Origin: Heterotrichella gracilis
Lineage: Eukaryota > Sar > Xanthophyceae > Tribonematales > Xanthonemataceae
Direction of reading: 5' to 3'
Assembly (NCBI GenBank): GCA_032358255.1
Contig: JAULBX010004443.1
Coordinates: forward strand, 62,001 to 126,000
Length of the DNA stretch: 64,000 nt
Part shown: positions 127-64,000 of the stretch, in pieces
Numbering within the stretch: the first letter of the stretch is position 1
How the letters are laid out: each line of letters begins with the position of its first letter
Made by a program: the position numbers and the translations under genes
Notes under the pieces: model-generated
Told to the model about the DNA's origin: nothing
Seen by the model: only the letters and a program-made list of their open reading frames with translations
Databases searched by the model: none

Positions 127-3100
127 GGCTCCCTTCCTGCTGAAGAGCAACATGAGCATGGTGCTGTACAAGGCGCACGACCACCCCGCCACCCATATGC
201 ACCTCACAGCCACCCCCCTCACGGGTGTCATGAACAACAGCAACTTCACATCGCTGCTGGCATTCATCGGGGGGAACCTCAAGGAGCTGAGCGCGCAGGT
301 ATGTATATAAAAAATAGATGGGATTTAATATAACTTACTTATAATAAAAATGTTTTTAAATTATTTCGTAAAGTACATTATCAAGCGGTATGTACTACGA
401 ATTGTGCTTTTAGCTAACAACATCTGAGATTCAAAAGTATAGAGGGTTTTAAATAACTTCTTGCGTATTAGAAATGCGAAGGAGTCCCCGGATGTGAGAT
501 GAAGGGTCCTGATTTTTTGCAGGAGGGGGCGATGCCGCCGGCCGCCGCGCCGGTGCGCACTGAGTTTGCGCCGCGAATGAAGTTTGGGCCGCCGCCGGGC
601 GACATGGCTTCCTTCCGCATGACGCTTGCGCTGCGCTCCGTGACGCTGCTCATGGAGGCGGATCCCTGTCTGTGGCAGGCGGGGGTGCCCTCGCAGCAGC
701 CGCTGGCATTCCTGCGCACACAGGTACTGCGCCTGCCGGGTGATGATATATATATTATGACTATTGTTACTATACCTTTGTTATTATGACCTTGTTACGA
801 CCTTGTTATCTATTATCAGGTCATGGTCATGGACATGGTCCAAGTGGCACAGTGACAGAGTTACACAATGTATCAACACATGGTCCACATGGGCGGGAAT
901 ACATCCATGTGGTGGCGGTATATTGCTCTGCGCGCCATTGTGGGGATGCCCTCGCACCACAAGCCTTTTGTTTGGTTGCACTGTGTCACTGGTTCCACTT
1001 GCATCGCCTTGTGATGTGAAGTGGAACTTACCACATCACATGGTGTGATCAACATTGCATTGTGTCATGATGACATCATGTGGTTGCGCAGGTGAGCGGC
1101 CTGACCATGGAGCTGAACACGCTTGTGCACAGCGGCAGCACGCAGCTGGCCATAGACGTGCGCGGGGTGCAGCTGGACGACCTGAGGCTGGCATACAGGT
1201 GGGTGTAGGGTTTGAGATTTAGGGTTTAGGGTTCATTGGGCATACATGAGTACACACACTGGGTGCCTTGTCACTGCTTAAAGCTATGGCCCTGTGGCTG
1301 CGGCTTGTTGAGTGCCCCTACCTGGCGCAACTTTCAATCACAGGGTTTTTTAGTGAAATTCAAGGTCGAATCTCCTGTAGACGTGCACTTGCTGCATGCC
1401 ACTGGTTCAAGGTTGGGTGTACCGATATTGCTGCACAGGGAACTGTGCATAGCTGGCTGGGCAGTCACTGCCAGTGCATGTGGCGTGACTTCATATTTCA
1501 TGCATGCTGCAGGGTGGGTGCGCTGCTCCCCACCACCCAAGGCACGCCCATGGCCACCCCCCCGCCCACGCCTGGTGCCACCACCACCCCCTTCGTCAGC
1601 GAGATCGCCTCCACCTCGCAGCCACCCGCCACCCCCGGCGCATCGGTGTACGCGTGGCAGCAGGCAGCGCGGAACAGCCTGCGCCGCTCCACCCCCGGGA
1701 TTGGCGCGGGGATTGCGCAGTCCTACCCCCCCATCGTGACTGTGGAGCAGCTCCCTGACCTCAACCCCGAGGGTGTGCCTGTGATCCACCTGCTGCAGTG
1801 CCCTGTGCTGCTGCCGCCACCCGAGGCGGGGCACCTGGAGGACAGGACAGTGTCGGTCAGCAACACGGCGCTGGAGGTGGGGTGTGGCGAGTGAGGGATG
1901 GCGTGGATCCTGTTGTTGCCATGCAGTTCGAATGTCAGAAATTACTGTCCATGCTTGCAATACCACTGGCAACACAGCTTGAAGATGTGAAAAGTGCAGC
2001 TAGTGCACAAGCAGTACCCCATGGAGCGCACATCCTGACGTCGCTGCTGCTGTGCTGTGGCCGCGCAGGTGAAGCTCGCCATGTACCCCGGCGGCACCAT
2101 AATATTACATTTTGTGTATAGAATTGAAGTGATTTTTTGTACTGACGTTGCTGCTGTGTCTGCGCAGGTGAAGCTCGCCATGTACCCCGACGGCACCATG
2201 GCCATCGAGGTGTTTGCCGCGCAGGCGCTGGTGCAGTGGCCCTTCCTGGCAGAGATGTCGCTCATCAACACCATCACTGCGGTGTTTGCAATGCCAGACG
2301 CAACCACCGCGGCGGCCACGGATGAGAGCGGCACGGTGCAGGCGGTAGCCGCGGCGCTGCCCCCCGGGCCCAAGCCCTGGATGTACCTGAATGTGGTGAT
2401 TGCGGATTCCCAGATCTTTGTGCCCCTGTTCGACATGGTGAGGGCAAGGTGCTTTGAAATGAATGCTGGTACTGTGCCTGCAGCCAGCGTGGCTACCACC
2501 ATACTGGAAGGTGTATGGTGGTAGTTCCAGCCGCACCCTACCAGGTTTTGTAGTTGTGATTTCTACCACACAGTACAACTGCGTGCAGCCACACAGCTCT
2601 GTAGTACCTGCGCAGGTTATTCACTAATATGCACTGCTGAATGTCTCTGTGTGTGCGTCTGGGTGGGGGGGAGATTTGGGCAACGATAAGACATCACCCC
2701 TGATGGTGCATACAGATAGATTTATAAACCCTAAACCCTTGGGTCCCCCTGCAGGACGAGGTGTACAGCCTTGCGCAGCAGCTGGGCAACCGGTGCGGCG
2801 GCGGCGGGGGCGCATGGGAGCGCCTGGCCGACCTCATGCTGGCCACAGTGGTGCTGGCAGAGCGGGAGGGGGCGCAGGGGGGTGAGGCACGGGAGCTTGA
2901 GGAGCAGGGACTGGCAGTCACTGCGGCGGCCATCCGGTTTGCTTTCTCTGCGGGCGGGGATGGTGGTGCGTGGGCGGGGATGCGGGTGGGCTTGGCAAAG
3001 TAAAATTGTTAGTATTCAGGGTTTAGGGTTAACTTGAAAGTGGGCTCGGTGCAGTACTGCTATGTGTGCGGTCACAGTGATGTGATGCCAGCCTTACGGT

Positions 3101-6100
3101 TATGGTGAAGTAATGCCAGCTGATCAGGGAGAGGTTTTGTAATGACAGAGGGATACTTGGTGGGGTTTGTGCAATGTTGGCCCGCACAGCGTGGTCATAA
3201 CCAGGAACCCTGGATGTGGTGCTGGAATCTTGACGGGCGCGCCCTTGTCATGCAGAGACCAACATGAAGGCGGATGTGCGTGACGTGGCGGCGTTTGTGC
3301 GCCACCCTCAAGCCATCGTCAAGTGCGGCCTGCTGCCATTCTCGGCATCCTTTGACATGCACCAACAGGTATGGCGTCTGGCTTGAGGCATCCCTCTGTC
3401 TCTCTCTCCATGCATCCTACTTGGGCAAGGGGGTCGCAGCCTGCCTGTCCAGCACATATGCCACTGTGGCCAGTGCTTGTGCATGCTTGTTAATTTCCCT
3501 TTGATGGCCACTGGTGTGTGCATGGCAGCTGTTCTCTGGCGATTCCCTAGAAAGATTCTGCCTCTGCTTGCCTGGGAAAGCAGGCGGATGGTGGTTGTAA
3601 TGACTGCCGCTGCATGTGTGCTGGCAGGTGCCTATTGCTTCTTGATTGTGTTCCTGGGGCAAACTCTTGAATATTAAACCCTACACCACTTATGGGTAGT
3701 GACATCCTTCCCATCTGCAGGTGCCCATTGCCTCCGAAATGGACATGATTGTGCGCCTCACGCGCGCCGCCATCCGCATACAGCGATGGTGGAGGAGGCA
3801 GCTGGTCAAGATGGGTGCGCAGAACTGACATGCACTACGCGGAATCTACTACATGCGACACTAGTATGCCATACTACTGTGGTTCGACTGGAGTTCAATG
3901 GACCTTCCCGTTGCCACACACAGCATGACTGGATCGGCAGCCTTGCTTCCATAAGGCTACCTTGTTAGCCGCACATATGACACTGTTGAGCTACAACATA
4001 GATGCCTCCCTCTCATATGCTTTTTAACACCACTCATTTCACCCCCTTGTCCCCCAGGCAAGAAGGTGGCACCCGAGTACGCCGACTACGACCCCAGCGA
4101 TGCCGGCAGCGACATCACCGATGAGGCAACGGCTGCGGCTGCCGCGGTGAGCCACTCCGCGGTGGATGCGCTGCTGTCCGCCCCTCTGCGCGCGCTGTCG
4201 GTGCGGCCGCGCCAGAGCTCCTTGCTTGACGACGCGGTGCTTGAGTTTGCCACCCCGCGCACCAAACAGATCCTGCTGGAGTACCAGCAGACGTCCAGGG
4301 TAAGCTCATATTGACGTAGTTATGTGGGTCCTGCTACAGTGGGGACGGCAGATTGTCTGTGCGGTTGTATGGTACACGTGCCACCTCATAATGACGCTGG
4401 GAGGCCGGCAGTGTCTGTGCTTAGCACCGTTGCTTGCATGGATGTTGAACACCTAACGCCTTGGTCTGATGTGCAATCAATGTGCCATCAACCTTGATCT
4501 GATGTGCAAGCAATGTGCAATCAGCCTTGCTCTGATATGCATCTTGCGCATACCGGCAACGGTTGAGACAAGTCCCTTGTGGTGCCGTTACAGGAGGGCA
4601 TGCGGTCGCTGCTGGCGGGCATCCTCCAGCGCAGCCCCTCCACCACCAAGATTAGCGTGCGCGCGGGCCAGATCACATGCCGCGCTGCCTTCTCCTACAT
4701 CCCATTCATCCAGGCGCTGCAGGTTACCCTGGATAGGGTGCTGGGCCCATCCATGGCAACACCGCCAAACCAGCCCTCACCCACAGCATCGGTGCAGGTG
4801 GGGACAGGGGTCCTGTTTATCACACAAAACGATGTTCTAATGACTTTGCCTCATACAATGCCATCGACACCATATGCCATGGTCTATGAGTCACGGAGCC
4901 AGTAGCGGATGTTCAAAGAGGCTCGGCAGCTGGTGGAAACAGATACATGCATGGTTGTTGTGAATGACAAGTACATTGATTTCATTGCTATTATTGTATA
5001 TGCATGACTACACCCAAGGATACTGCTTGACTGGTTTTCCTGCTGTGCAGCCCACCTTCCGGCCCAGCAGTTTCAAGCTGGATGCGGCTGCGGGAGGCAT
5101 AGCGCTGGTGCTGTGCAACGACAAGCCAGAGACATTTGGGGCGCCAGATGTGTTGCAGGTAGGTGTGGCGACCACTCGGGATATCATATGCAGCGTATGG
5201 CAGGGCCTGATGGGTCTGCTTCTACTCATCATATGCAGGGGATGGCCTGATGGATCTGTTTGCACGCCTCATTGGCCCAGTTTGTGATACACACCATTGT
5301 GCATGGCAACATCCAAGGATGCACTCCAGAGGCACTCCAACCTGCACATACGTGCCGGTAGTTGAAGCAGGCGTGCGATTGGACCACCATTGGTGCCCCC
5401 ATTCGTGCTCTTTGTTCCTTGCAGATGTGGCTAGATCATAAATCCATGCATGCCGCCCACTCCACTCCATTCCCTTTCCTTGCAGATGAGCATCAGCCAT
5501 TGAAACCTGTCCACGTTGCCCTCTACCACTCTCCATGTCCCATCCTCACACACACCACCATCCCCCCTTTACTCCCCTTGCAGATGAGCCTGAACCAGAT
5601 CCAGGCGAACGCAGAGATCCAGCAGTTGAGCACATTTTGCCCTCTACCACTCCACGTCGCCCCCCCCTATACACACCATGCTCAACCCTAAATCCTAAAC
5701 CCTAAACCAACACCCCGCCTCCCCCCTTGCAGATGAGCCTGAACCAGATCCAGGTGAACGCCGAGATCCAGCGGCTGAGCACCGAGCGTCGCCCCAACAT
5801 GGCGCTCATGGTGGCGTTCAAGCTCAAGGGCAGCTTCCTCAACAACAGCAGCAGCAGATGGGAGTCAATATGCGAGCCCTGGCCATGCCAGCTGGAGGCG
5901 GTGGAGCAGGTGTCCAGGGTGTACCGATCGGACAGGAGGCTGTAAGTGGAGCAGTTAACCCTGACAACCTCTGCATTGCAAACCCTGGATCGCAGGAGTA
6001 AAATCTGGCAAATCCCTGGTGGTGGGGCCACACATATGCCTGATGCACTAATCAGCAGAAGCATGCCTTCAAAATGGTACAGCTGGAAAGTACAAATCCC

Positions 6101-9100
6101 CGAAGCACAATACTCTGAACACTACACTTCGCAGAAATCCCTGATGCCAAAAACCCTAATTCAATGATGACAGATTATCACCAAGTGCAAAACCTGAGCT
6201 TTAAAGCATGCGTTTTTCTGTGCCTGCAGCATGGCCTGGGTGACGTCCGACAAGATGCTCAACGTGCGCTTCAACCCAGCTGCGCTGCTGAGCATAGGCG
6301 ACGCACTGGCATTCCTGCGCCAGCTCACCACCATACCAATCCCCGGCGGGATCCCCAACGAGGAGGAGGAGATGAACCTGGGGACAGAGCCGGTACGATG
6401 TATCCCCGGTTTTGCCCAATCATGGACATTGGTCTTTTGGCCTGTGCCTGTGTAGTCATTTATGCAGATTAATTACATACAGCCCATGGCAATTGGACAA
6501 ATGTGGTGGATGTGGAAGCTTGTGCAAGAAGGGTATACTAATATGCCAACTGTTGGAAATATTAGCATATCCCTGGTGCGAGTAGTGGATCCCTGTCGAA
6601 TCAACGAATGAATCCACAATGGAACTTACCTTCCCCCTGCCCTTGCGCCCCCAGGACGCTGCCCCCCCTGTTGAGGAGCAGGTTGGTTCCACCAAGAGCA
6701 TCACCAGCAGGGTGCCGCAGAAGTACCTCATACAGAACCAGTCGGGGCTCAAGGTGTACTACTGGGCAGATGAGCAGGTGCGCACGCTGTGGCACAGACC
6801 TGCATCTGGGAAGCCAGTGCAAGACGAGTGTTCTCCATTGCCTGGCAAGCTGCACATGCCTGCGTACTCCACCGTGCACGCACGCAAAATGCTGCTCATT
6901 TGTTTGCGTTACAGCCAATCACATCATTATATGTTTCAGTGAATGGTTTTACTTTGCAGCCATACTGTGGCTGGCTAGTCCGTCTGCTGCCTGTGCCTGT
7001 GGCAGTAGCAGTGCATGTGGCAATTAAAAATTGACTTTGGCTGTCCAACCTAATGTGGGCTCCTTGGCTGTGTGCAGGCGTCGCGCGACTCCCCCTCCAC
7101 TTTCTCCCTTGACAGTGGTGGCGCAGAGGCGCTGCGCTGCTCCCCGCGGCGCAAGGCGCTTCAGATTGTGCAGGAGGGCCATGGTCAGACTACCGACAAG
7201 GAGGCGCACATGGTCAACCTGCACTTTGAGGGGAACTGGATGCCAATCCGGGTGAGGGGCAATGGGGGTGGGGGGTGGCAGACGCACAGTGACTTTGTAC
7301 TCTTGGAAGGCTGTGGGTCGCAGCTTAAAAGATGGGCTGCATAATCCACAATAGCTGTGGTAGCAATCACATTTGTCAGGCAAACGGCACAGTGCGCCTT
7401 GTGACACACGCTACTCTGCACTGTATGCTATAATTTCAAATACCTGTGAGATGATTGTATCGTATCCCCTCCGGCTGGACATCCTCATGACCGTGGCAAG
7501 TACCCTATAGGGTATACTGATAAACCCTAGACTCTCAACTAGTCTCGATTTCCCTCTCCCCTTGCAGGACATCCCCGTGAACGTGGTCGGCAAGTACCGC
7601 TACTACATGGCCTCACCCCGCGAGCTGGTCAAGGTGCCAATCATAGTCGACATCATCCTGGTGGGCCGCACCAAGATCATCACCCTGCACTCGTGCGTGT
7701 GGCTGGAGAACAAAACCGACATCAGCATGGCATTCCGGCTGCTCATACCCACCACGCCGCTGGTGGCGCCGCTGCGCACCGAGGCCCAGCTGGGGGAGCG
7801 GGGGGGGGATGTGTCGCTGGAGACCAACACCATGTGGATCGGGCCGCTGGAGCGGGATGCGGGTGCGCTTGCATTAAACCCTAATACCTAAATCCTAAGT
7901 ACCATGTGGACAACACCATGTAGATCGGGCCGCTGGGGCAGGATGCGGGTGCGTGGCCTTGGCCCAAAGCTCTAGACCCTATGCTTTAAATTTTCAACCC
8001 TAAACACCATGTGCATTGGGCCGCTGGAGCGGGATGCGGATGGGTAGCTTTGGCCTGAAACTATAACCCTAAACACCGTGTGTCGCTGGAGACCAACACC
8101 ATGTGGATTGGGCCGCTGGAGCGGGATGCGGGTGCGTGGCCTTTGCCTGAATCCCTAAACTCTTAACCCTTGACCCTAAAGCTTAAACCCTAAACATCAT
8201 GTGGATCGGGCCGTTGGGCTAAATGTTAGCTAGGGTTTGTTGCATGCCCAGTCTGCCGCAAGGATCCTTGTAGCTGTGCAGTGTCATACATAAGGTTTGT
8301 ACACTATATGTGCAAATGTTTTGTCTGTTTTAGTCAGGGTTTAGGGTTGAGCCAGCCTATGTAAGTACATGGGCATTTATGGCTGCCCACATAAATCACG
8401 TTGTTCTTCCCCTGCGCAGGCACCTACCTGCCCGTCACCTCGGTGCTGGGCGGCCTGCTGTTCGTGACACCAGCCGGCTACCAGGAGGCGGAGCGCGACG
8501 TGATCAGGCTGTCGCCAGACATTGCGCGCATCCAGCAGCAGCAGGGATACATCACATGCGCCCCCATGGCGCCCACTGTGCCTGGGGTGGACAACCACTC
8601 GCTGCACTGCGCGGTCAAGGTCACGCCCGCAGAGGTGAGGGGTGGACTGCTTGAGGGGCTAGTATAGTTGCGCCAATGAAAGCTACCGCCAAAGGGCATA
8701 TGCACCATTAAAATTCCCCCAGGACTAATTACTTCAAGAGTATGGATGGTAGCCTGTTCCATATACGGTAGACGCACAAGAAACTGCTGCACTGAGCAAG
8801 CCAGTCCGCTATATTGGAGTGGTGGGCATGTATAAAAAGCACACACGTTGTCAACACACATATGCAGGCAGAGGAGGTTTCGCATCTGTGATGGTGGTGC
8901 CACCATGCTTGCTCTGTGCTGGCTCATTGCCAAGGTTTCTGGGCTGTGCGCAGGTGATCTCTGAGTTCCAGGCGTTCAAGCACATGGAGAGCCCCAGCGC
9001 AGGGGAGCTGCAGAAGGCGACCTCCCCTCTGGAGGCGTCGGTGTCCATACACCCCCCATTGGTGCTCAAGAATGCGCTGCCGTACCCCATGCGTGTTACG

Positions 9101-12100
9101 GTCTGGCAGGTGAGGGGCCCACCTGCGCACAGTGCAGGAAATTTGTACTCCTGTAAACAGGGTTGCAGTGTGCGAGCAGTCTGCCCATGGTGTGCTGGTT
9201 TAAAAGGCTGTGTTTGGGGATTGCTTGTGCTGCCCACCTATCTTGCCCCAGCTCTCCCCTGCTACTCTGATCTCGGCAGATTGCGCTGCTTTGTACCCAG
9301 CAACTGTGCCACCTTTCATCTGCCTTGCGCTGCCTTCATTCCTCACATTGTGTGATTAGCCGCCCCTAAACAGACACCCGCTGGCCAAAGCAGCCAACGA
9401 TTTTCTGGTCCATACTTTGTCGAATTCCCGATCCCCTTACCGCACTACTCCCCAACTGCATTAACCAAATGTTTCGCCCACCGCGGCTCATTTCTTGTTC
9501 CATATCTGCCTCACGCCTCCTCGCTGCCGCAGCTGACTGTGAAGCAGCCCGACCGCCCCAAGGCCGAGGCCGCCGGCGCCCGCACCACCGAGATGATGCG
9601 CCAGACCGCCTCCGACATCCAGTCCATCCCCGCAATCACCAGCGGCGCAGTCCCCCTGGGCCTGTCCAAGGGCCAGGAGGCAAAGGAGGAGATGAGACAC
9701 ATACAGGTGGGGCAGGTTTTTAGTGTCATCTGATTTTTGACTACAACTGAAATGCTGCAAAAGAAACCCGTCCAATGTGTTTCCAGATGAAACTCAAAAA
9801 TCAACTTCTTTTGTCAATTTAAACTTTCGTAAGTACCCTATTTGGCCCTGTTGGGGCGTTGTATCCAGTTGGAACTGGGAAATCTGCCACAGACTGTTTC
9901 TATTTAATTCCCCAAATGGTGCTCCATGGAGTGCACTCAAGTGTCCCCGCTCCTACCCGTGCAGAGCTTCAAGCGCGACGCGCGTGTGGGCGAGGTGGCT
10001 AAGGAGGTTGCCGCCATGGGCGAGTCCCCCGCCAAGCTTGCGCGCAACAAGACCATCATGCGGGTGCAGGGCACCAAGCTGGCGGGGGGCCGCTTCCTGT
10101 GCATCATGCTGCAGCCAGGCGCAAGCCAGGTGGGGAGGGGGGTGGGGAGGGGGTGGACTGGCATCCGCTGCCGGTGTCTCGGTCCTGTTGCGAGGATCCA
10201 TCATGTATTTTTTTTGTCATAGGGAATAATGTTCAGGGGCATGGGTGTGGCGTAGTCCCCATCCTGCCAGTGCATGCCCTCATTAAAATTGCCACTGTGT
10301 TCCCTTGGTTCTGTTGCCCAGAGAATGACATGGCATCTGCCCCACCTGCTGCACAGGGTGTTAGCAGGTATCAACGCACCTGTGCTGGTTTAGGGTGTTG
10401 GGTTCTGTATGATTGATCCCTTTCCCCCTTGGCGCAGAGCGTGTACGCGGACCTGAACGCGCCTGTGCTTGTCAAGGCTGCTGTGCCCGATCTGCGCCTG
10501 TACCCCTCTCACTGGGCGGTGCTCAACTGGGGCCGCATGGAGGACGAGGCAAGGTTCAAGTCAGTCAAGAGGTAAGGGGAGTGGTGTGTGTGGGGATGGA
10601 GGTGGAGAAAACCTGGAGAGTCTTGGGATAGCTTGTAGGACTCGAGTAATGTGGTGATGCAGTGTTGGATATATGGCGCTACTCCCTCTCATCCAGGAAT
10701 GGTGCAATCAGTGCGGAGCTGCAGCCGCGCTTGCAAGGCTGGCTGCTAATTTCCTGCTGGGAAGTAAGGGACATGGATGTGCCAAACGAACTGCACTCAG
10801 TCCCCCCCCCTTGCGCCATGTCCTCCGCAGGCTAGCCAAGACCATCCGGCTGCGCAAGCGGGAGCGCACCACCCCTCCCGCCCGCCACGTGCAGGTGGCC
10901 ACAGGGGTGGCTGAGGGGCTGCAGTCCGCCGCCACAAGGGGGGCGCAGGGGGTGGTGTACGTGGGGAAGGAGGTGCAGCACGCGCTGGGGACGGTGGTGG
11001 ACAAAGTGACCGAAAAGGTGGGCGTGGGAGTGGGCAATGCTGCTTGTGATGGCCACTGTCAGTTTGCAGTTGACTACTGCTCAATGCAGCTGCCCATTCT
11101 TCTGACTGATGAAGGTCACGTGAATCAGGGCCGAGCACCGGGCGCTGATTGACCGGAATGCCGCTTGCCACGGCCGTGCGGACACAAATGCGCCCAGAAG
11201 CCACATAACGGGCAGTCAAACAGCAATGGATTTTATTTAGCAAACAAAATCATGTACATTTTTATCTAAGGGAATGTAAATGTTATATATTCTATAAAGA
11301 TGCTGCAGTGTGGTTTCCATTGGCAACCGTCCCTTGTGGTTTTTTTTACATTGTTTTTACATTGTTTTTGTACATTACACGTATTGCCCCGCAGCGCGAG
11401 CCCCACTCCGACCTGTGCTCCGACATGGGGGTGCGGGGCCAGACTGAGCCCGAGATCGTGGAGATGGTGCCCGAGCCCCAGTACCGGACCAAGCACTCGC
11501 GTGTCATCCCCGCTGTCAAGGCGGTGGCAGGGGTGCCCAAGAGCCTGGGCCACAAGGCCAGCAATGCGGTGCGGCGCAGCACCAAGCAGGCGCCCAGCAG
11601 CGGCGGGGGGCACTTTGTGCAGGGGGGGGTGTATGCGGACCAGGTGGTGCCTGGGGAGAAGGTGAGGGAATAAATTATTGGCTTTCCGTGGCTTGGAATC
11701 CTCATTGAGACGTTTGTATGGCTTCTATGAGACATGTATCATGACATTATCATGTTATTATCAGGATATCAGGATTATGTAAATAATCACCACAGACCAA
11801 CCCCTGTCTGCCCACCAGCCACCAACTTCTCAGAAATATGCATTTGGAGATATAAACTGGTATATGGGTGGCCGCACTGCTAATTCCACAATTTGTGGCC
11901 CCACAGGAACCGGTCACCATGAAGCGGAGTGTGTGGAACCGCCTGAAGAACGCGCTGGTGCCCGCCACCCGCATCCAGTCCACCACCAAGCGCGGCCACC
12001 TGCCCTCCCCACAAGAAATAACTCCGGAAGACCTGTCCCCCTCCCTGCAACCCACACCCGCACCCTCAGCAGGCAGCGCCAGCAGCGTGCGGGAGGTAGC

Positions 12101-30209: not shown

Positions 30210-30214
30210 TGTAA
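30210..30214 (+). terminator. Probable poly(A) signal TGTAA of the VPS13-like gene
   Basis: TGTAA, followed by TAAAAACC, lies about 510 bases after the stop. TGTAA is the usual near-upstream element in chlorophyte mRNAs. It sits near the convergent end of the LEA-like gene. Confidence 0.5.
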
Positions 30215-53459: not shown

Positions 53460-54499
53460 CTAGAAGAAGGGCACCCCCGCCTTAGACTCCAGTGCCGCAA
53501 GCACCACAAAGCCCAGCATTGCCGCCCGCCCGTTGGTGATCTCTGCCTGCGGTGTGAATATGCCTGCACCATGCACAAGACCTATGATGAGTACACAGAA
53601 GCCGCTGCAGGGTGGGCCATCAGTACCACACGCAAATGCACACAGCAACCGACACACAGCATGAGAGCACAAAATTCACTTCACACTTGCACATTTATGA
53701 CTAACTGGCGGTTGTCGTATCCTTGCACGTAAAATCCAACATGCATGGATACTGGCACATACCGAACGCTTCCATCTTGCAGCCCCTGAGCACCGGTACC
53801 ATGGTTCCGTACACAATGGCCAGCAGCAAGAGCACGGGGAGGGGCTGCAGGTGCTGCGCCTGCTCCAGCACTGTTTGCCCCGTGTGGACCTCGGTGTAGG
53901 CACCCATCAGGAAGCCCACCATGGCTAGCCTGCTGTTGACAAGCTCTGGGGCGGGTCCGCCGAACTTCATTGCGTCTGCAAGCATAGCCACCCCATAATG
54001 TTCACCGCACTCAGCGGTATGACTCATACCGTATGAGCGACAACTCCCGCTGTAGGACATTGCGACCCACGTATGCATGGGGAAACCCTCATATGCATGC
54101 GAAAGCAATTCAAACACCTGCTCCATAACAGGTGCATATTGCACGTAGCTCAACACAGCAGGGTGCCTTGGTGGCAATACATTCCAGCGAAAATGCACGC
54201 CTGCATACATATGCATGTGGGGGGAAATGACACAGCTCCTTACCAAAAAGGGAAACCCGGTACGACTTTGGTGGCACTCGAAGCGTTGTGCTGGTGGAAG
54301 GCACTGCCACCTCCACCACTTCTAACCCCGCAGCTCCGTTGTCAATGATCACTGTACTTGGCCCAGCGCCATTGAACTCCCGCATCCTGGGCCCATCTGC
54401 TGCAGCATACACTTTTATGTGCTTGTGCCTGGAGGGTTGTGTGCGGCTAGTACTCACAGGGCCTTGCTGCAAGAGTCTGGAGTTTGCTGAACTGAGCAT
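53460..54499 (-). CDS. ELIP-like chlorophyll-binding stress protein
   Basis: Three exons (54244-54499, 53763-53975, 53460-53563) give 190 residues. The N-terminus MLSSANSRLLQQGPVSTSR is a plastid transit type. The first membrane helix holds ELVNSRLAMVGFLMGA, a second hydrophobic segment is PLPVLLLLAIVYGTMVPVL, and the last is EITNGRAAMLGFVVLAALES. The two E-x-x-N-x-R-x-A-M motifs, facing each other as helices 1 and 3, and the short length are typical of early light-induced proteins, which bind pigments and protect thylakoids under high light. The pre-helix part (GAGPSTVIIDNGAAG) is less conserved. Exon 1 and its upstream region have a diverged second copy at 57.15-58.3 kb. Confidence 0.87.
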
Positions 54500-55310
54500 G
54501 GTTGCTGGGCCCACAAGGGCAAGATCAAGCGCTGCTGAAAGGAGTCGAGACGAGTGGTGTCACAGCAGCAGGACTAGGTTTCCACGCAACGCAGCGGTGT
54601 TGGCTAGTACAGACGTTGAACGCTCGCTAAGTACAGCGGCAATAGAGTCAGAAAAGAAGTCTCGTGTGGTTCGCAGGAACGTGTGGAGGAGGGCACTGTG
54701 GGTCGACTTGGCATGTACGCCAGGTACTGTTTGCCTTTAATATGGCACCTCTTCAACGTAGGCGGAAATCCAGCGACGTGTCAGCTCCACGAATACTTTA
54801 CAGTGAGCACTATGCAACGTTATGCCACGAGCTGATGCACAGTGCACAAACGCATGCATGCATATGCAGCATAGAGATCTCGGAGACCCACGACACTGGT
54901 TAGCGTCAGTTCTACACCTTGGCACTCGCACGGATTCCGAAATTGGTTTCAGAATTCCTTGCGCAGCTAAGGTGCTTGAGACCTGTTGGCACCAGATTTC
55001 TAGCATCTCGACATGCATGCATCTTGGTTGTGTCCGGTCTCTTGCTGTGGTGCCAACGCCAGGTGCCTCTTATATGTGCATTTGATAACCGTTATTGCAC
55101 TCTCAATATAGCTGCCCGTGACTGTGTTCCATGCAGGCGTTCTGTGATAAACTTTGGGCTACCTTGCAAAGCCCACATTTTCCCATTTTCCCCTGCCCAG
55201 TGAAAACTCCTGGAACCAGGTCATGCTTCTGCGAGCGTCCCTGTCGTACCGAACCCTGCCAACTCCTTGGGTTGGCACGAGTGGTGGTGTCAGCAACTTC
55301 ATGGGCTTTA
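54240..55310. repeat. Segmental duplication, copy 1 (ELIP exon 1 plus upstream DNA)
   Basis: Matches 57150-58320. Shared landmarks in the same order: GTGCTTGTGCCTGGAG and GTGTGCGGCTAGTACT (exon 1), GCTGAACTGAGC, CCCACAAGGGCA, GACTAGGT/TACTAGGT, CGCATGCATGCATATGCA, ACGGATT.CGAAA, GACATGCATG, a GCGTGACTGTG/CCGTGACTGTG element, TGCAGGCG and GTGGAACC/CTGGAACC. Identity is patchy, so the event is old. Confidence 0.7.
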
Positions 55311-56375: not shown

Positions 56376-56389
56376 AGCATTGTCGGGGT

Positions 56390-56775
56390 ACAGTGCTGAC
56401 TTACTCCCAACGCGGCGCAAAACCTCTTCTCAAATTGACCAGGAGCAGGCCTGCTCCTGGTCAATTTGAGTGCCTTGGGCAGAAAAGCCCAAGGCACTCT
56501 GGGGATATAATTTGCGGGTGAAGCAATTTTAGCTGTAAAATTGCGGCCAAGCACTTCCCACATGGAGCGGCAGCATTTCATGCAGACTTGGTCTGCATGA
56601 AAAGCTGCAGCTTAAGGTGGTAGGTGCTAGGCAGCAGCTTACAGCTGAAACTGCGTCACCCGCAGATAGTATCCCAGAGTACCTTGGCCTTGGCTGTATA
56701 GGCTGCCTACTCCCGGTCAATCTGAAGAGGTTTGCTTCCTACGGGAGAACTTCGGCACTGTCCCATTTTATTGTG
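56390..56775. repeat. Imperfect long inverted repeat with nested perfect palindromes
   Basis: The two arms (about 56390-56587 and 56591-56775) are reverse-complement relatives meeting at GCAGACTTGGTCTGC. Matching landmarks when folded: GTCTGCATGAAA, TTACAGCT.AAA, TCACCCGCA, TACCTTGG/TGCCTTGG, GGTCAAT.TGA, GAAGAGGTTT and CAGCACTGT/CGGCACTGT. Inside the left arm are further perfect hairpins: 56429-56470 (42-base palindrome), 56468-56480 with 56487-56499 (13-bp stem, loop AGAAAA) and 56523-56531 with 56536-56544. At the centre, 56576-56587 pairs with 56591-56602. AAGCTGCAGCTT (56602-56613) is also palindromic. Confidence 0.85.
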
Positions 56776-57149
56776 ATTATTTTAGCAGTAAGGCTGAGAT
56801 GGCGAATTGGTTACATACGCTTGCGAGTAAAGTTTGTATACTTACACGGTGGGGGTATAGGTTCAATTTTGAATATCTCAGTGGTCTGAATGTTGACCTT
56901 TGCCATGGGAGAACTCGGGCAAACTTCAGAGGCTGAGAAGTTAAGATAGAATGCACAAGCTCACCCGCCGCTAGGCGGCCACCAGCTAAGTGCCATGAGT
57001 CATGATAATCATGCTCTGCATCATGATGCAGCGTCACACCAGTGCATGTATGACCACTGCCAATTAATTGTTATACTGGCAGGGCTTCGTTTACTGGCAG
57101 GGCTTGTCATTTTGCATATTGCGTTGGCAATTACTTAATCTGTTTTTAG

Positions 57150-58320
57150 GTAACCTTTTTTGTTTGGTAAACCACAAGAGAACCTCCACCAGGGTCGTGT
57201 TTACAACCTATAATATTGCGACGGTGACGCAATGTAACAAATCTTGCAAAATCTGCCAGGTTGTGGCTTCTTGCCTTGCATGGCTTGATAATGGCATAAT
57301 ATGTACCTGGAGGGCCAGCTCCGTTTTCAATGACCACTGTGCTGGACCCAGCACCAGTGAAGGCGCGCATCCTGCGCCCATCTGCTGCATCATACACCTT
57401 CAGGTGCTTGTGCCTGGAGAGATGTGTGCGGCTAGTACTTGCAGGCCTTGCCGCAATAGTCTGGAAGCCAACAGCATGGCACCGACAGCATGCACGCCAT
57501 CAGCATGGCGCATAGTTGTTGCATAGCACATACAATAATGCAACTATTTTCCTTGTAATTTCCATGACTTTAGTTAGTCGCTGACTTGCTGAGCCCAGCG
57601 TTTTATGAGCTGCTGAACTGAGCCTTGTTGCTGCACCCACAAGGGCAGATGAATGGAGTTCACACTGGTGGATATACAGCAACTGGGTACTAGGTATTCA
57701 CGTACCGTTTCAAAGACACGTATGGTGCTCGCCATTTTTGCAAGTACCGGCAAATAGAAGGTCGTTTATGGGCGCAGGACAGTTTGGGGGAGAGGAGAGT
57801 GGGCATGTGAGCGACGTTTGTGTGCCATTTATTCAATGTCACCCCTTTAACTGTAAGCGCAAAGCCAGCAACCTGGTAGTTTCGTGAGCAGAACATAGCG
57901 GGCATGCAAAGTCGTGTCACGGGCCGATACAGCACAATTCCAACGGCCGCAACACGCATGCATGCATATGCAAGTGTCTCGAGGACGTAAACGCTGACTG
58001 CCTGGGTCGCGCATAGTTCTACCTACTGGGTGTCAGCACGGATTTCGAAAGTATACCAACCCTGGTAGGCGCAGGTAGGATGCCTTGAGGCCTGTCGGCC
58101 AACATGACATGCATGTGTTGATATGCATGCATTGGTTGCTCCGGTGTTTGCATGGTCTGCAGTGCGCGTACTCTGGTTCATGCAGGCAGATATAATAACC
58201 TCGATGCTAATGCGCGTGACTGTGATCGACTGCAGGCGGTTGACAACAGAGGGACGCTGCCACTGGGGCTGCCTTGTTCAGCGCCCACGAGTGGAACCAG
58301 TACTATACGATCTGACCACG
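57150..58320. repeat. Segmental duplication, copy 2
   Basis: Diverged second copy of 54240-55310, about 2.9 kb away in the same orientation. It carries the ELIP pseudogene and an extra stretch of roughly 110 bases between the exon 1 remnant and the former start region. Its right end abuts the RRM gene. Confidence 0.7.
57322..57650 (-). pseudogene. ELIP exon 1 pseudogene
   Basis: On the minus strand, 57480 to 57322 reads a relative of ELIP exon 1 (KVYDAADGRRMRAFTGAG, STVVIENGA, against VYAAADGPRMREFNGAG, STVIIDNGA in the live gene). The similarity stops after this point, and exons 2 and 3 with both chlorophyll-binding helices are absent. The region matching the live start codon (57605-57650) has CCT where the live gene has the CAT of its ATG, so the start is lost. 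An insertion separates it from the rest of exon 1. Confidence 0.75.
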
Positions 58321-58376
58321 CCTGAAACTTGAAGGAACTACTCTGGAATCCGAGTATCGACCCAGGTGCAGGCAGC

Positions 58377-61300
58377 ATGCAGGGGGCATATGACCCGGGG
58401 TTTGTGGGGCCATCCTTGCCTCCTGGGATGGGACCCGCACAGCCTGTGCACCCGGGTGGGTACGACCCAGCCTTTGACTACAGCAGCGAACAGCAATACG
58501 CGGAGCAGTATGCGGCTCAGTACGGGGCGCAGTACGGCGGGATGACCTATGCCCAAGCAGACGCCTATCAGCAGGTGACAGATATACCACCCAGCAGTTG
58601 ATGGGTATGAGCAGTGTCTGCTTGTTAAGGGTTTAGGGTTCTCCTTGGCCCTAGAAAATCAACACGCGTGCTGTGAGGGGCTGGCATGTCCCTGTTGCCT
58701 GCAGCGTGTATGACATACGCCTACTTACCTTAGTTTGCCGCCATAGGGGTGGCGCAGCCAGTCGCCAGGTAGTAACGTGGTGCCTATCTCATTCTGCACT
58801 GCACATCCCACTTTGGCACCCCAATTTTGCCATCCCTTCCCCTTTCTGTGCCCTCCCCTGCCATGCCCTAACCCTAAACCCTAAACCCTAAAACTCGATA
58901 CCATCTTTCCTCCCTGCTATGCAGCCAGGCGCGATGCCCTACGATGGCCAGATGCAGCAGCAGTATATGGGGGCCATGGGGGTGCAGGGTGCTGGCTGGG
59001 GACCAGGGCAGGGAGACAAGCCGTTTAGCAGCACCACTGTGTTTGTTGGGGGGCTCTTCCCTCCTGCAGGTAAGGGGCACAACCCTGAACCCTAAACCCT
59101 AAATCCCCAACCTTAATCCAGTGTGTTTGTGTGGGGGACTCGAGGCAGGTAGATCTACCCTGCTGCAGGTAAAGGGAATAACCCCAAGGAGGGATGCCCC
59201 CACCCACTCACACTCACACTCTCCCCCTGTGCTCGTCACCATGCATCAAGCTTTGGACACATGACACTCTCGTCATGCCGCACATGGATATTTCACCCTT
59301 CCAGCACAAGCTACCTGATTTGATCCGGTGTGGTGATGCCCATCAGAACCTTTAAGGTCCCACGCTGCGTTACAATCGAATTTCTGAAGCTGGCTTTCTA
59401 TACAAAGCAATGAGGTACAAATTGCCGTGCGCAGGCACCCCCAACGGCGAGGCCCCGGCAGCGATCGACGACGCGGCGGTGCACAACTTTTTCTTCTCGC
59501 GGTGCGGCCCCGTGGTGAGCGTGCGCCTGCAGCTGCAGCGCGGGTTTGGATTTGTGGAGTTTGAAAACGAGGCGGCCGCGGCGGCCGCCTTTGCGCTGGA
59601 TGGCGCCAGTGTGGCGCTGGATCCCGAGCACCCCGAGCGCCTCACGCGCATCAAAGTGGTGGGTGCTGGCTCTAAATAACATGTTTTCCACGCATTAATG
59701 TTGGTGGGTGCTGGCATCTATGTCCCTAACGCATCCCAGCACCCTCTACATGTGCTCCTATACTCGCCGCACGTGCTCTTGCACTAAACCCTAAACCCTT
59801 CGCTTTCCCAGAGCCACGCGCACCAGCGCGCCCCCAGGCCCATCCTACAGACGCCCACCCGAGAGGCCTGGCCCAGCCCCCACCCCCACCCCCACACAGG
59901 CCCCGTCACCTTGCTACCACCGGAGGCCATGCACACCCCACCGCCCCCTGAGATGCAGCCCTTCGACCCGCGTGGTGCTGATTTGCGTGGCCCTGATTCA
60001 CGTGGGGCTGATTCCCGTGGACTTGATTCGCGAGGCTCTGTGCCCTACCGGCCCCGCCCCAACCCCAGGAGTGCGAGGGCGTGGACCCCACGCAGGGGCG
60101 GTGAATCTTCCCCTCCCCGTCTGCCTCTCTACACGTACGTCTCCCACCCTCCCTCCTCCAGTAGACCACACACGTGGCTTGCATTACCTGGTGCCTGACT
60201 TGGCATGCTTTAAAACTTGAAACTGGGATTTAACCATTGTAATGCTTACATTAAAATTGGAATATGAGTTTGTATACTGCTGCGTGTCACACAGTACCTG
60301 CGAGGCCATGCAGTGAAGGAGTTGCCTCGAAAACCAGTATTATTATATTAGCGAGTATGGACAGTTTTGGACTGTTTCAGGGTCTAGAATCCTTGATATT
60401 ACAGAGTTTGCATCTTTTGTGATATGATTGTGTGCTCCCCCCCAGTGACCGTGAGGCCAAGGAGGTGAAGGAGCTTCTGAAGAGCGAGGGGGTGCGCCAC
60501 CTGCCAGAGGCGGCCCGCCTGGTGGCGCACTGGCTGGAGGGGGGGGAGTGCGCCAAGGCAAATGCAGACATCTTCTACGTGCTGGTGCAGGTGAGGAGGG
60601 GGTGGTGGGGAGGGGTGGTGGGGGAGGGGTTGCGGGAGGTGGTGGAAAGATCTGCAGACACCCTGGGCTGCATGTGTGTAGTTATCGGCCTCGGTAACAT
60701 GGGTATAGAAATGACGTCCCCAGATTCGGCAGCGTTGTTCTCTCAGAAAGTCCTTAGCACATGCTACAAACTCGCCATATTGGTGTTGGAGGGTTGGCAG
60801 GGCATCTGATGCTGTCACCGCAATGTGCACGTATATCGGCTCCAATCAGGGGGCTGTGCTGCTGGAGCCTATGCACCTGATACATAGGACACATTGCTTC
60901 TACACGTGGCTCGACACAATGTCATGGCATGCCATGGACCCTTAGGCCTTATGTGTATTTTGCCTGCATATGCGCTCTGCATGCTGGTTACTTGACACTG
61001 TTTCGTCTGTCACGCCCACGCCAAACCCTACTCTAGACCCTAAACCCTAAACCCCTGCAGGGGGTGAGCAACAAGGTGAAGGGGTGGGCAGCAGTGGAGG
61101 AAGAGCGGCTGAAGAGGAGGGCACTGGAGGACAAGGAGTTTTACGAGGACATGTGCAACACGGTGCGCTGGGGGTAGCAGGGTATAGGGTTTAGGGTTTC
61201 TGTGCAACACAGTGCGATTGGGTTGCAAAAAATGGGGTAAATAAGCGGTTTTTTGGGTTATGGGTACCACTGTGCCCTAGGGGTGGCAAGGGGGATGTGG

Positions 61301-64000
61301 TGCTCTGTTGGTGGCAGTGGCGGCCCATAGTTGATACATGCTTCAATGGTAAGGATGGCGACAAGGATGGTGGCACGGGATGGTTGGTGGGTTGGGGATA
61401 TGGGCAGCTGTTGGTGTTGTGCTGGCTAGGTGGGTGGCAAGCGCAGGAGGCTTGGTACCTTTGACTTGCTGGTAGGTGCGCTGCTGGCATACAGTGGGGA
61501 CAGGTTAGCTGCCACTGCGGTGGGCAGTGCCATTGGCTTGCATTGGTGGCAGGGGAGGGCAGTAAGCAGCAGGATTACACTAGTCACCCATCTGCGGCAC
61601 TGGAGACGGTGGCGGACATGCGCTTGGCAATTTATAGGTGGCGGGTGCACACGCTTGGGTTTCGGGTTTAGGGTTTAGTTGCTTACAAATGTGCTTGCAC
61701 CCCCTTGTGTGCCAGCGCCATCCCAGCTGGAGCATCACGCACACTGCACTCGCAGCAGTCCAGGTAAAGCGCAGGCCAGCATTAGCACTGTATCGATAAC
61801 CCGTATGAGTTCTGTCTGGCTCTTCATTCTTGCGACGGCGGACGCCTCATCACTGCGGTGGGTGATGTGGTTATGTCCATGTGTTGTTGCGCACAGTGTG
61901 AGGTTGTGGGGCGGGTGCTGGCGGCTGCTACCAAGCAGCGCGTGCAAGACGTGATGTCCAAAACGCAGCGCGCCAATGTGAAAACCATGCTCACGGGATT
62001 CGGGGAGCTCATGGAGCACTTTAGGTAGGGTTTTGCAACAGCGGTGCTACGGTTTTTTCATGCAAGCCAGTGCTGGTTTTGTATTGGGATGGGTTCATCG
62101 GCATGCAGGGGCGGTTGGGTGGCTTTGTCTTCAGATGGCATCGTGGTGGCGTATGTGGACGGGTATTATGTAAGTAAGTAAAGTAAGTAGGTACATAGGT
62201 TGTGTGAGGACGGAGCATATTTGTGGTACATCACACCCCTCTGATGGCTAATATATCCTGGTGCATGGCGGCGTCGTGGTGAGTCCACCCCACAAGCTCT
62301 GGTTTAAGGGTTTAGGGTTTAGGGTGTGGTGTGCTAAACCCAAACCCTCTCGTGTGTGGTACATATGTTGGATGGTCCTTCAAGTTGTTTTGCACCCTGG
62401 TTGCTAACCCCTTGGGTGCACATTTAAAGGTGCAGGAGACAGACCAAATCCCTAAACCCTAATGCAGCGCGGATACAGGCGGCAGCTGCAACAGCAGCCA
62501 GGCAAGAGTGGACCCTAAACCCTACATTTCTAAACCCTAAACCACGATCACTCAACCCAAACCCCTACCGGTGCAGGCGGAAGCTGCCACAGCAGCCAGG
62601 GGAGGGCGACATGGACATGGAGCTCGAGGACAGTTCAAAGCAGCCTGGGGCCCCACCCCCACCTCCCCCTGCTCCACCAGCGGGGGAGGAGGGGGGTGCG
62701 GAGGGGCAGCAGGAGGCGGGAGATGCTGCACAGGCGTACGCATCAGGCCTGATGGCTCCGCCTCCTGACATGCTACAGGTACGGCATGGTCCTGGTCTAA
62801 ATTTAACCTTAAACCTCAATCCTGATGCTGGTCTAATGCAGGTTCCGCTGATGTTGTTGCATTGAGGGTTATGCTGGTTGTGTGGCGGCAGCATCACAAG
62901 CTTGGAACCAGTCTTAGTTGTTGGTCGACCACTGCCCATTGTGTCGCTTCACGTGACATGCTGCAAATCAGTGATTGCAACCCATCCCCTGCACCTGTCT
63001 GATTTGATATTCCATTGTATAACCCGATTCCTGCCTTTGCCGTAATCACCTGGTTCATCATTGGCTTACCTGTGTTGAAAGCCGACCAATTTGAAAGCAG
63101 CACCCTTGACGCGATGATGCCGCGCATTCCCAGGACTATCCGCAAGGGGGAGACATCACGGGAGAGAAGCGTAGGCGCGAGGAGGAGGACACCGCCAGCC
63201 TCATCCCACTCATACAGGCGCAGAACGAGTGAGTGCAAGCGGTGTTGTTAATGGGGCTGGGAATAGGGCCAGTGGTGGTCAATGGTGCTGCAATGGCCAT
63301 GTCTTCCAGCGAAACGTGAGGCTGTGTGGCTTGACCACGCTGATGATCCAAGTGCGAGGTGGAGGGGCCAGCCATGCATCACCAACCTGCATCCCATGTT
63401 GGTGGATCCACAGCCACGTAATCACGCATGCATGCCACTCACATCAGCGCATAGCCCCAGCTAACACCATCACCCCCCTCTTCTACAGAACCATCACCAA
63501 CCTCAAGAGCCAGATCAGCCAGATGGAGAGCAACCTGGCAGCCACAAACACCCCCATCGCCCCCACCACTTTGTCATCGGGCGACCCCTCCCCCCTCACG
63601 AGCGCTATCGCCTCCACCCTCTCCATCTACCTGTCGGGCCAGCCGCATGGCGCCGCCCTGGAGGAGTGTGCGGCCTACATCGCCAAACTGGCCAGTGGGT
63701 CTGGGGTGGGGCGGGGGGAGGTGGCGGGGCATGTTACTGCAGCTGTGCTGCAGGCACTGGAGGGGTCGCCAGGTGGGTGGTGGTGGTGGGATGGGTGGTG
63801 TGGTGGGTGCAGGGGGCACGGTGACAAGGACTTGAGATGTGGGATCATGCCGCATGCATGCCTCTTGCGGTGGGGTAATATCTGCATGGTCTAGCTGGCA
63901 GAGGCTTGATGCCATTGGGTAATGATCCAATGCTGTGCACCAGAGCTCCTGATGGCATCAGTGTGCCACGATCACTTGTGTATGATTGACAAACCACCGA
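58377..64000 (+). CDS. RRM-containing RNA-binding protein (3' partial)
   Basis: Ten in-phase exons: 58377-58574, 58925-59069, 59435-59658, 59812-60134, 60446-60590, 61061-61162, 61897-62024, 62577-62778, 63134-63228 and 63489-63772. They give about 615 residues and the gene runs off the window. Residues 1-100 are Gln/Tyr/Gly-rich (EQQYAEQYAAQYGAQYGG), a prion-like low-complexity start. An RRM follows, with RNP2 VFVGGL (105-110) and RNP1 RGFGFVEF (150-157). Then come a Pro/Arg-rich region with RG-D repeats, a helical part (KEVKELLKSEGVRHLPEAAR), a poly-Pro and Glu-rich part, a KRRREEE nuclear-signal-like cluster and a coiled coil (NLKSQISQMESNL). It is probably nuclear and involved in mRNA processing. 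The exact family is not recognised; upstream noncoding exons are possible. Confidence 0.8.
59034..59176 (+). repeat. Donor-side copy with CCCTAAA tract in the RRM gene
   Basis: The RNP2 exon end (GTGTTTGTTGGGGGGCTCTT, CCCTCCTGCAG, donor GTAAGGGGCA) is echoed at 59121-59180 (GTGTTTGTGTGGGGGACTC, CCCTGCTGCAG, GTAAAGGGAA). CCCTGAACCCTAAACCCTAA (59083-59102) lies between. The offset is 99 bases, a multiple of three, but the telomere-like tract supplies an in-frame TAA, so the downstream donor would truncate the protein. Confidence 0.85.
59971..60040 (+). repeat. 15-base coding tandem repeat (RG-x-D-x)
   Basis: Four full units of CGTGGNNCTGATTNN plus a partial fifth encode RGADL, RGPDS, RGADS, RGLDS, RGS. 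Codon-third changes between units are few, so the array is young. RG-rich repeats often bind RNA or are arginine-methylated. Confidence 0.85.
61149..61220 (+). repeat. Donor-side copy with TTTAGGG tract in the RRM gene
   Basis: The exon end TGTGCAACACGGTGCGCTGG (61153) is copied at 61202 (TGTGCAACACAGTGCGATTG), with ATAGGGTTTAGGGTTTC (61183-61199) between. The offset is 49 bases. Confidence 0.85.
62466..62606 (+). repeat. Acceptor-side copy with CCCTAAA tract in the RRM gene
   Basis: The exon start GGCGGAAGCTGCCACAGCAG (62577) has a copy at 62479 (GCGGCAGCTGCAACAGCAG). The tract between them (62513-62542) reads ACCCTAAACCCTACATTTCT, then AAACCCTAAACC. The offset is 98 bases. Confidence 0.85.

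Follow-up and report, generated by a model that had tools for sequence, protein, structure and literature searches.

Introns in a 64,000-nucleotide stretch of the genome of the xanthophycean alga Heterotrichella gracilis (contig JAULBX010004443.1 of assembly GCA_032358255.1, positions 62,001 to 126,000; hereafter, the window, with coordinates counted from its first letter) contain copies of their own exon edges and, often, a short telomere-like tract of TTTAGGG or CCCTAAA units lies between the original edge and the copy. As judged from the sequence, the edge copies and the tracts are best read as duplications formed at staggered breaks and rejoined with telomere-repeat filler, an interpretation to which we assign a probability of roughly 0.6. 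The pattern is of a known kind, short interstitial telomere insertion accompanied by target duplication, in a new setting, with more duplication and with the tracts concentrated at splice junctions. All results pertain to this one 64-kb window, that is, to genomic sequence of one species.

The copies were sought in seven genes that jointly contain 101 introns (30.7 kb in total, median 296 nt). Of these introns, 87 belong to three large genes (encoding a VPS13-like protein, a subtilase-like protease and an RRM protein) in which the phase was checked, and 14 belong to four small genes with approximate models. The exons were placed by hand from GT/AG sites, replacing a simple hidden Markov model that over-predicted exons; in the three large genes, the G+C content is 66% in exons and 51% in introns. 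Each exon edge (50 nt of exon and 6 nt of intron) was compared by alignment with the intron it borders and with every other intron. At a score of at least 13, a copy is present in the own intron at 25 of the 202 intron sides (14 donors and 11 acceptors), compared to 0.68 expected from the other introns and 2 in the reverse-complement control. At a score of at least 12, 28 sides carry a copy, counting plus-strand introns (90 of the 101, with the 11 minus-strand introns left out). All 17 copies that had been listed in a preceding reading of the letters alone (hereafter, the sequence-only reading) were recovered at their coordinates, and to these are added copies at acceptors 3721, 7568 and 10438 and weaker ones at donors 724, 14009, 21775, 22953 and 25987. 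The median offset between original and copy is 99 nt (45-159 nt in 22 of the 25, 261-269 nt in the other three). At a score of at least 13, the copies differ from the originals by about 2-37%, gaps counted, and they are mostly short border stretches, often joined by telomere units and in some cases arranged in multi-copy arrays, all of which argues against an artefact of assembly (two haplotypes falsely joined as a duplication, for example) and makes this explanation very improbable.

Telomere-like tracts were defined either strictly (at least 10 nt, exact) or loosely (score 9). Three settings were picked after inspection of the data, namely, the loose cut-off, the copy scores (12 and 13) and the border window of 40 nt employed below; the strict tracts serve as a check. 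There are 31 strict tracts, compared to 0.25 in shuffled sequences (30 in introns, 1 in an exon and 0 in the 11.6 kb of unannotated sequence), and 45 loose tracts, compared to 1-4 per whole-window shuffle (42 intronic, 1 exonic and 2 unannotated). The 31 strict tracts in these genic 64 kb are telomere-repeat runs at non-terminal sites; TTTAGGG is taken here to be the telomere repeat of this organism, an assumption carried over from plants and many green algae. Rather than being equally common in intergenic DNA, the tracts are, within the window, rarer outside introns (42 in 30.7 kb of introns vs 2 in 11.6 kb of unannotated sequence; P about 0.0002 by length), a comparison that is a guide only, because the unannotated share is partly incompletely modelled. 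The four small genes, LEA, Lhca3, V-ATPase subunit C and ELIP, are tract-free, as the sequence-only reading had held (0 tracts in 14 introns; P about 0.007 by intron length).

Tracts and copies occur together far more often than expected by chance within the window. By intron, with strict tracts and copies at a score of at least 13, both are present in 10 cases, a tract only in 9, a copy only in 14, and neither in 68 (Fisher p = 0.0023). Longer introns could hold more of both, and therefore position was tested as well. In the plus-strand genes, a loose tract lies between the original and the copy (score at least 12, with 3 nt of slack) in 14 of the 28 cases, compared to a null mean of 2.35 and a maximum of 9 in 2000 draws of equal spans at equal distance from copy-free borders; for strict tracts, the count is 10 of 28, compared to 1.69 (maximum 8). 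The earlier estimate that about half of the listed copies have a tract in between is borne out (11 of the 17), with the tracts at 16712-16729 and 39709-39721 being degenerate.

The duplications described next are given on the plus strand. On the donor side, eight copies are associated with tracts, and these copies are mainly exon, with 5-16 nt of intron. At border 7862/7863, the array at 7809-8217 includes the original exon edge (7809-7867) and four diverged copies (7911-7964, 8006-8059, about 8082-8136 and 8198-8217), with one CCCTAAA-type tract before each copy (7875-7898, 7996-8005, 8065-8074 and 8153-8195). At donor 14476/14477 (14441-14588), the original at 14441-14485 is followed by a tract at 14498-14514 and a copy at 14544-14588 that is identical in 41 of 45 positions and keeps the GT. 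Two tracts each separate original and copy at donor 15167/15168 (15153-15242; original 15153-15172, tracts 15185-15198 and 15209-15221, copy 15223-15242) and at donor 20556/20557 (20506-20660; original 20506-20562, tracts 20577-20586 and 20595-20608, copy 20613-20660). In the protease gene, donor 39701/39702 (39678-39751) has the original at 39678-39706, the degenerate tract at 39709-39721 and the copy at 39723-39751, and donor 41885/41886 (41869-41968) has the original at 41869-41898, the tract at 41902-41924 and the copy at 41939-41968. In the RRM gene, the same layout is found at donor 59069/59070 (59034-59184; original 59034-59077/59085, tract 59081-59116, copy 59118-59176/59184) and at donor 61162/61163 (61152-61222; original 61152-61173, tract 61179-61199, copy 61201-61222). 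The non-tract sequence left over between the copies can be as short as 2+1 nt (39701), 3+1 nt (59069) or 5+1 nt (61162). Donor copies reach farther into the intron at 15167, by 29 nt in a gapped extension, and at the tract-free donor 13394, by 25 nt.

On the acceptor side, where the copy precedes the original, three tract-bearing cases absent from the earlier list are acceptor 3720/3721 (3624-3734; copy 3624-3641, tract 3675-3687, original 3717-3734), acceptor 7567/7568 (7465-7598; copy 7465-7504, short tract 7521-7539, original 7557-7598) and acceptor 10437/10438 (10341-10469), where the tract at 10387-10404 directly abuts the copy at 10341-10386 and the original is at 10424-10469. Acceptor 62576/62577 (62443-62600) has its copy at 62476-62502, tract at 62512-62543 and original at 62574-62600. 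Acceptor 5732/5733 (5505-5782) is a tandem, with the copy at 5505-5633, the second unit at 5646-5782 and a tract at 5684-5708 in the intron part of the second unit. Acceptor 16751/16752 (16611-16791) is also a tandem, with the degenerate tract at 16712-16729 in between and a copy without the AG; its ungapped match is limited to the exon (16760-16788). The sole intron-internal duplication with tracts (40923-41102) consists of three units with G-type tracts at 40977-40992 and 41046-41063 between them.

Other duplications lack a tract. Near-contiguous tandem duplications are found at acceptors 18637/18638 (18451-18672), 19509/19510 (19332-19535; the copy is without AG) and 22229/22230 (22089-22285). 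Acceptor 2167/2168 (2035-2199) has copies at 2035-2100 and 2142-2199, and the array at acceptor 20443/20444 (20171-20481) consists of several diverged units spaced 77-101 nt apart. The tract-free donor copies are the one at 13394/13395 (13358-13561) and weaker ones at 14008/14009 (13988-14062; score 14.4), 21774/21775 (21759-21892; score 15.4), 22952/22953 (22925-23107; score 13.6), 25986/25987 (25962-26059; score 13.8) and 723/724 (681-959; score 13.6, 243 nt apart), of which the last three may be due to chance. The acceptor-side copies described in the sequence-only reading are real as copied edges; their form had to be revised, because seven cases in gapped alignment are near-contiguous tandem duplications in which each unit comprises the exon edge and the intron tail before it, with 26-87 nt of this tail in the copy and 8-41 nt between the copies. 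At 5733, 16752 and 62577, the intron match may be partly tract because telomere sequence was left unmasked in the gapped alignments. The other acceptor copies extend 4-14 nt into the intron.

The view that such copies provide spare splice sites stands at the level of sequence: by eye, the splice dinucleotide (GT or AG) is retained in 12 of 14 gapped-aligned copies, a count that omits the 61162 row, which was aligned elsewhere, and the second 2168 row, and AG is lost in the copies at 16752 and 19510. Offsets divisible by 3 make up 7 of 13 on the acceptor side and 5 of 15 on the donor side. Inspection by eye shows that the reading frame runs into a stop in the copies at 18638, 19510 and 16752 and stays open in those at 2168 and 22230. 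At these latter two acceptors, the stretch from the inner to the outer site is open in frame (2069-2167, 33 codons, and 22120-22230, 37 codons), such that splicing to the inner site would lengthen the protein instead of cutting it short.

BLAST of the window against itself yields an excess of direct repeats, mostly under 500 bp, and inverted repeats display no comparable excess there. With telomere units and simple runs masked beforehand, 35 ungapped direct pairs (offset 20-1000, score at least 17) were detected, compared to 0 in 6 block shuffles. Hand grouping gave 18 clusters that involve introns, 14 across an exon border and 4 intron-internal (4459, 17563, 31384 and 32174, with the 31384 repeat ending no more than 3 nt from a donor); an intron-exon match at 10577 (G-rich), an exon-exon match at 31068 in the LEA gene and an exon-internal one at 59971 were omitted, and the 16752 cluster crosses the border solely in gapped alignment. 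These observations raise the alternative that ordinary tandem duplications, generated by slippage or unequal exchange, occur everywhere, with those at borders being seen best via the conserved exon copy and with the telomere-like minisatellites being unrelated. The plain near-contiguous duplications without tracts at acceptors 18638, 19510 and 22230 and the tract-free tandem repeats in LEA introns are in line with this scenario. So is the simulation, in which random tandem duplications straddle a border in 28-57% of the detected cases, the share varying with the length and divergence of the unit; the detection rates are slightly high because the real introns that were used included some already carrying copies, and the observed 14 of 18 is weakly above the upper end of the range (P = 0.06). 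Against this alternative speaks the link between tracts and copies reported above, which holds for loose and for strict tracts and by intron. The tract-bearing duplications, counted by intron, are at a border in 14 cases and internal in 1, that at 40923-41102 (P = 0.003 if 57% are expected at borders). Moreover, the position of tracts is independent of exon conservation, and yet, 28 of the 42 intronic tracts come to within 40 nt of a splice junction at their nearer edge, compared to 9.3 under uniform placement within the same introns (maximum 21 in 10,000 draws), as do 18 of the 30 strict ones, compared to 6.3 (maximum 17 in 5000). When one random tract per intron is taken, 21.3 of 27 are this close to a border, compared to 6.4. 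Given this evidence, the ordinary-duplication account appears unlikely, albeit not negligible.

The concentration of tracts at junctions could also be construed as a sign of selected splicing signals, with TTTAGGG acting as a G-run element after the donor and CCCTAAA as a branch-site or pyrimidine element before the acceptor, or with the tracts acting as separators that silence the duplicated site. Among the border-nearest tracts within 60 nt, 15 start 2-55 nt past a donor and 13 stop short of an acceptor by 6-37 nt, and the polarity expected from this hypothesis, TTTAGGG after donors and CCCTAAA before acceptors, is found in 21 of the 28 border-nearest loose tracts (Fisher p = 0.009). The polarity is the opposite, however, in 5 of the 15 donor tracts and 2 of the 13 acceptor tracts; it tracks the composition of tract-free intron ends and falls short of significance for strict tracts. 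In addition, 74 of the 101 introns have no tract and are presumably spliced, and the direct duplications are left unexplained, so that splicing signals seem quite improbable as the source of the pattern. Polarity was also considered as a fingerprint of telomerase acting on exon-bearing ends; this candidate was rejected because the base composition at intron ends that lack tracts has a matching skew.

The sequences on the two sides of a tract are often duplicates of one another. For 21 of the 42 intronic tracts, the 100-nt flanks match directly at a score of 13, compared to a background of 6.3% both at tract-free intron positions and at tract-free near-border positions; such direct duplication is a mark of end joining at the tract junctions. 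These 21 tracts are spread over 15 introns, with four in one array, and therefore are not all independent; the leftover per side ranges from 0 to 50 nt. No inverted matches between the 100-nt flanks were found among the 42 tracts at a score of 12, and 2 were found at a score of 10-11. The copy-insert-copy layout resembles a target-site duplication, which evokes a mobile element or introner with long target-site duplications and telomere-like ends. An insert body common to introns more than 2 kb apart was not detected among the matches listed for this window (score at least 36), which include the telomere motif and a few short stretches of low-complexity appearance. The lack of a common body among these long-distance matches, that of inverted matches across tracts at a score of 12 (assessed in the flanks, not in insert ends one by one), and the variable length of the duplications, which can exceed 100 nt and involve borders of existing introns, all run counter to a mobile element, leaving little probability for this origin.

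Introns with a copy are longer than those without, in agreement with the suggestion of the sequence-only reading that the duplications lengthen introns. The median is 357 nt with a copy vs 276 nt without (P = 8e-5) and the mean 377 nt vs 281 nt; within the three large genes, the lengths are 377 nt vs 289 nt (P = 2e-4). The means differ by 96 nt, about as much as the median copy offset of 99 nt. Longer introns leave more room for finding copies, yet less than one false copy is expected.

From the anatomy of the repeats, their direct orientation, the link between tracts and copies, the nearness of the tracts to borders and the greater length of copy-bearing introns, all computed here, we infer the following route. 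A double-strand break with overhangs would occur near an exon edge, through nicks on opposite strands separated by tens to somewhat over 100 bases. Filling in of both overhangs would duplicate the segment between the nicks in direct orientation. Before the ends are joined, a few TTTAGGG units would be put on one 3' end, either through synthesis by telomerase or through capture of a telomere fragment; the filler being added prior to joining, the tract would end up with one copy on each side. Where a splice site falls within the duplicated segment, the outermost site would be used in splicing, such that the protein remains unchanged, and the inner copy and the tract would become intron and drift, the intron gaining one unit in length. 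In a neat version of this scenario, the breaks would have 3' overhangs that are extended by telomerase and filled in by CST-Pol alpha-primase. Telomerase extends 3' ends; because 3' overhangs could serve both enzymes, one telomere toolkit would yield the tract as well as the duplication, and such a single toolkit could operate in this alga. Scars within exons would be mostly lost, with a telomere insert there tending to bring stops, as has been noted for mammalian exons (PMC7215372). With in-exon scars lost and edge scars spliced out, breaks could strike any position in an exon and the surviving scars would still lie at its edges; survival of edge scars would also fit the mainly exonic content of donor copies.

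Several observations weigh against this scenario. Half of the edge copies (14 of 28) have no tract, and half of the tracts (21 of 42) have no flanking repeat above the threshold. At 5733, the tract is inside the duplicated unit, not between units, so that the tract and the duplication may be separate events there. Among strict tracts, polarity falls short of significance both overall (p = 0.46) and in the border-nearest subset (p = 0.10); it parallels the composition of tract-free intron ends and lends the scenario no support. Taken alone, the duplications exceed random placement at borders weakly, with a P value for 14 of 18 that depends on the null: 0.002, 0.02 and 0.06 at null shares of 41%, 51% and 57%, respectively; with the 16752 cluster counted as non-spanning, 13 of 18 remain, with P = 0.06 at 51%. 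The multi-copy arrays at 7862 and 20444 imply that later rounds of duplication are needed. Insertion in one step is a presumption from the scars in one window, and synthesis by telomerase and capture of telomere pieces are not told apart by these data.

Comparison with known systems places the pattern among the interstitial telomeric sequences. The sequence-only reading proposed a break, duplication of the end and capture or synthesis of telomere units, and knew of no established name for the result. The mechanism fits the anatomy best among those considered, whereas the claim of namelessness does not hold: in mammals, telomere repeats are known to have been inserted at staggered breaks as short interstitial sequences between duplicated flanks (PMC2246262, PMC7215372), and staggered breaks can also give rise to small tandem duplications (PMC8355091). 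As in the window, the mammalian sequences are short internal telomere runs with end-joining-type flanks and, in some cases, direct target duplication ascribed to staggered breaks. Unlike in the window, where 21 of 42 tracts are flanked by duplications and 28 of 42 are within 40 nt of a junction, duplication is in the minority in mammals, being reported at 3 of 66 loci in horse, plus 2 of 66 among complex changes (PMC7215372), and at 6 of 130 in rodents and 4 of 25 in primates (PMC2246262), counts that are not strictly comparable with ours because they were obtained via empty sites, and ours via an alignment threshold. For human tracts, an intronic share of 31% was taken to agree with random insertion (PMC7215372).

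When CST-guided Pol alpha-primase fills in 43-bp 3' overhangs in mouse and human cells, small tandem duplications arise (PMC8355091), a kind of duplication defined by its dependence on CST, 53BP1/Shieldin and Ku. The duplications in the window are likewise direct, not inverted, arranged in tandem and tens of bases long, and CST is part of the telomere machinery; unlike here, the available text of that study says nothing of telomere repeats at the junctions, and the study relies on genetic tests, where we rely on scars. For new introns of Daphnia (PMC4202315), staggered breaks were proposed to lengthen introns and there are direct repeats between exon edge and intron, but these are of 4-12 bp and telomeres go unmentioned in the part available, in contrast to the longer copies and telomere filler here; in established Daphnia introns, internal repeats are less frequent (100 of 617). 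Direct repeats near splice sites reported in 2025 (PMC11782384) are also located at exon-intron borders; they relate the 5' border of an intron to its 3' border, with lengths of 4-30 bp (mean 11.4), whereas here, one border is copied inside its own intron. Introners and intron-generating transposons (PMC12730881) add sequence to introns, too, but the pattern in the window differs from them in that no common element body was seen among the long-distance matches listed and no inverted matches were found across tracts at the score of 12. A genome paper on Coccomyxa mentions telomeres and introns and, in its available portion, no such pattern (PMC3446292). Among the matches listed from the open-licence literature, we found no description of telomere repeats between duplicated exon edges.

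Tracts without a flanking repeat above the threshold, all in plus-strand genes, follow donors and precede acceptors alike. After donors are the tracts at 3018-3030 (55 nt after 2963), 22433-22441 (short, 39 nt after 22394), 24334-24343 and 24355-24371 (the first 11 nt after 24323), 28343-28362 (7 nt after 28336), 42451-42468 (3 nt after 42448) and 58624-58640 (49 nt after 58575), along with the one at 1201-1233 beside donor 1198/1199, where the flanking repeat is 8 nt only. Before acceptors are those at 2725-2739 (15 nt before 2755), 14858-14884 (20 nt before 14905), 37693-37702 (17 nt before 37720), 58870-58892 (32 nt before 58925), 59784-59799 (12 nt before 59812), 61033-61054 (6 nt before 61061) and the G-type tract at 61657-61678 (37 nt before 61716). 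The sole exonic tract, 13236-13246 (AGGGTTTAGGG), is in frame within the VPS13-like protein and may be due to chance or be a fossil.

The VPS13-like gene (plus strand, to 29701) has 58 exons in one frame that encode 3870 residues, with one stop at the end. Its product looks like VPS13, on the strength of a VPS13_VAB match (E = 7.8e-05, 21.8 bits) slightly under the curated cut-off of 22.6 and of the name given in the sequence-only reading; three further stretches of the protein matched no Pfam family. The protease gene (plus strand, to 47239) consists of 21 exons in one frame, encoding 1758 residues with a stop at the end, and two of its exons match Peptidase_S8 in Pfam. Just downstream of the 39701 duplication, an intron of this gene contains a perfect inverted repeat at 39795-39834 (17-nt arms, 6-nt gap). 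The RRM gene (plus strand, from about 58378) has 11 exons within the window and no stop, and matches RRM_1; its exon at 59969-60040 contains a 15/30-nt tandem repeat that reads in frame as RGADLRGPDSRGADSRGLDSRG and could be a case where a duplication of the same origin survived in frame.

The Lhca3 gene (plus strand) has an approximate model in which an internal stop remains, with no clean read-through. The product of one exon matches Chloroa_b-bind and photosystem I Lhca3 chains in PDB; comparison of this product with viral and bacterial/archaeal contigs turned up nothing relevant, nor did a search with the donor-plus-telomere pattern among viral contigs. The LEA, V-ATPase subunit C and ELIP genes are all on the minus strand, with names from the sequence-only reading and approximate models. 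The LEA introns contain perfect tandem repeats with no telomere tract at 31386-31457 (32 nt x 2.2), which stops within 3 nt of the modelled donor, and at 32175-32221 (23 nt x 2). The ELIP region has a partial second copy, in direct orientation, about 3 kb away (54331-54521 / 57316-57647; 151 nt at 85% and 37 nt at 89%), which looks like a decayed tandem gene copy. The unannotated segment 56429-56636 harbors three adjoining inverted repeats, namely, a perfect 42-nt palindrome (56429-56470), a perfect hairpin with 13-nt arms (56468-56499) and one with 46-nt arms at 80% (56542-56636).

How introns lengthen is hard to watch. If the scars are real events, two dozen or so readable steps are preserved in 64 kb, in each of which edge, filler and copy lend themselves to alignment, and break-driven growth of introns would become directly testable by comparison of strains. 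The duplication would supply ready-made alternative splice sites, and telomerase and the CST complex would be tied to gene structure, beyond the chromosome ends. A bolder proposition, which we regard as conceivable but doubtful, is that telomerase and CST-Pol alpha-primase carry out routine repair, in this alga, of staggered breaks in exons or next to them, with selection purging the scars inside exons and splicing sparing those over splice sites, and with introns lengthening outward from exon edges by about 100 nt per event. If so, the enzymes of chromosome ends would drive an intron-lengthening ratchet that leaves behind decoy splice sites set apart by telomere repeats.

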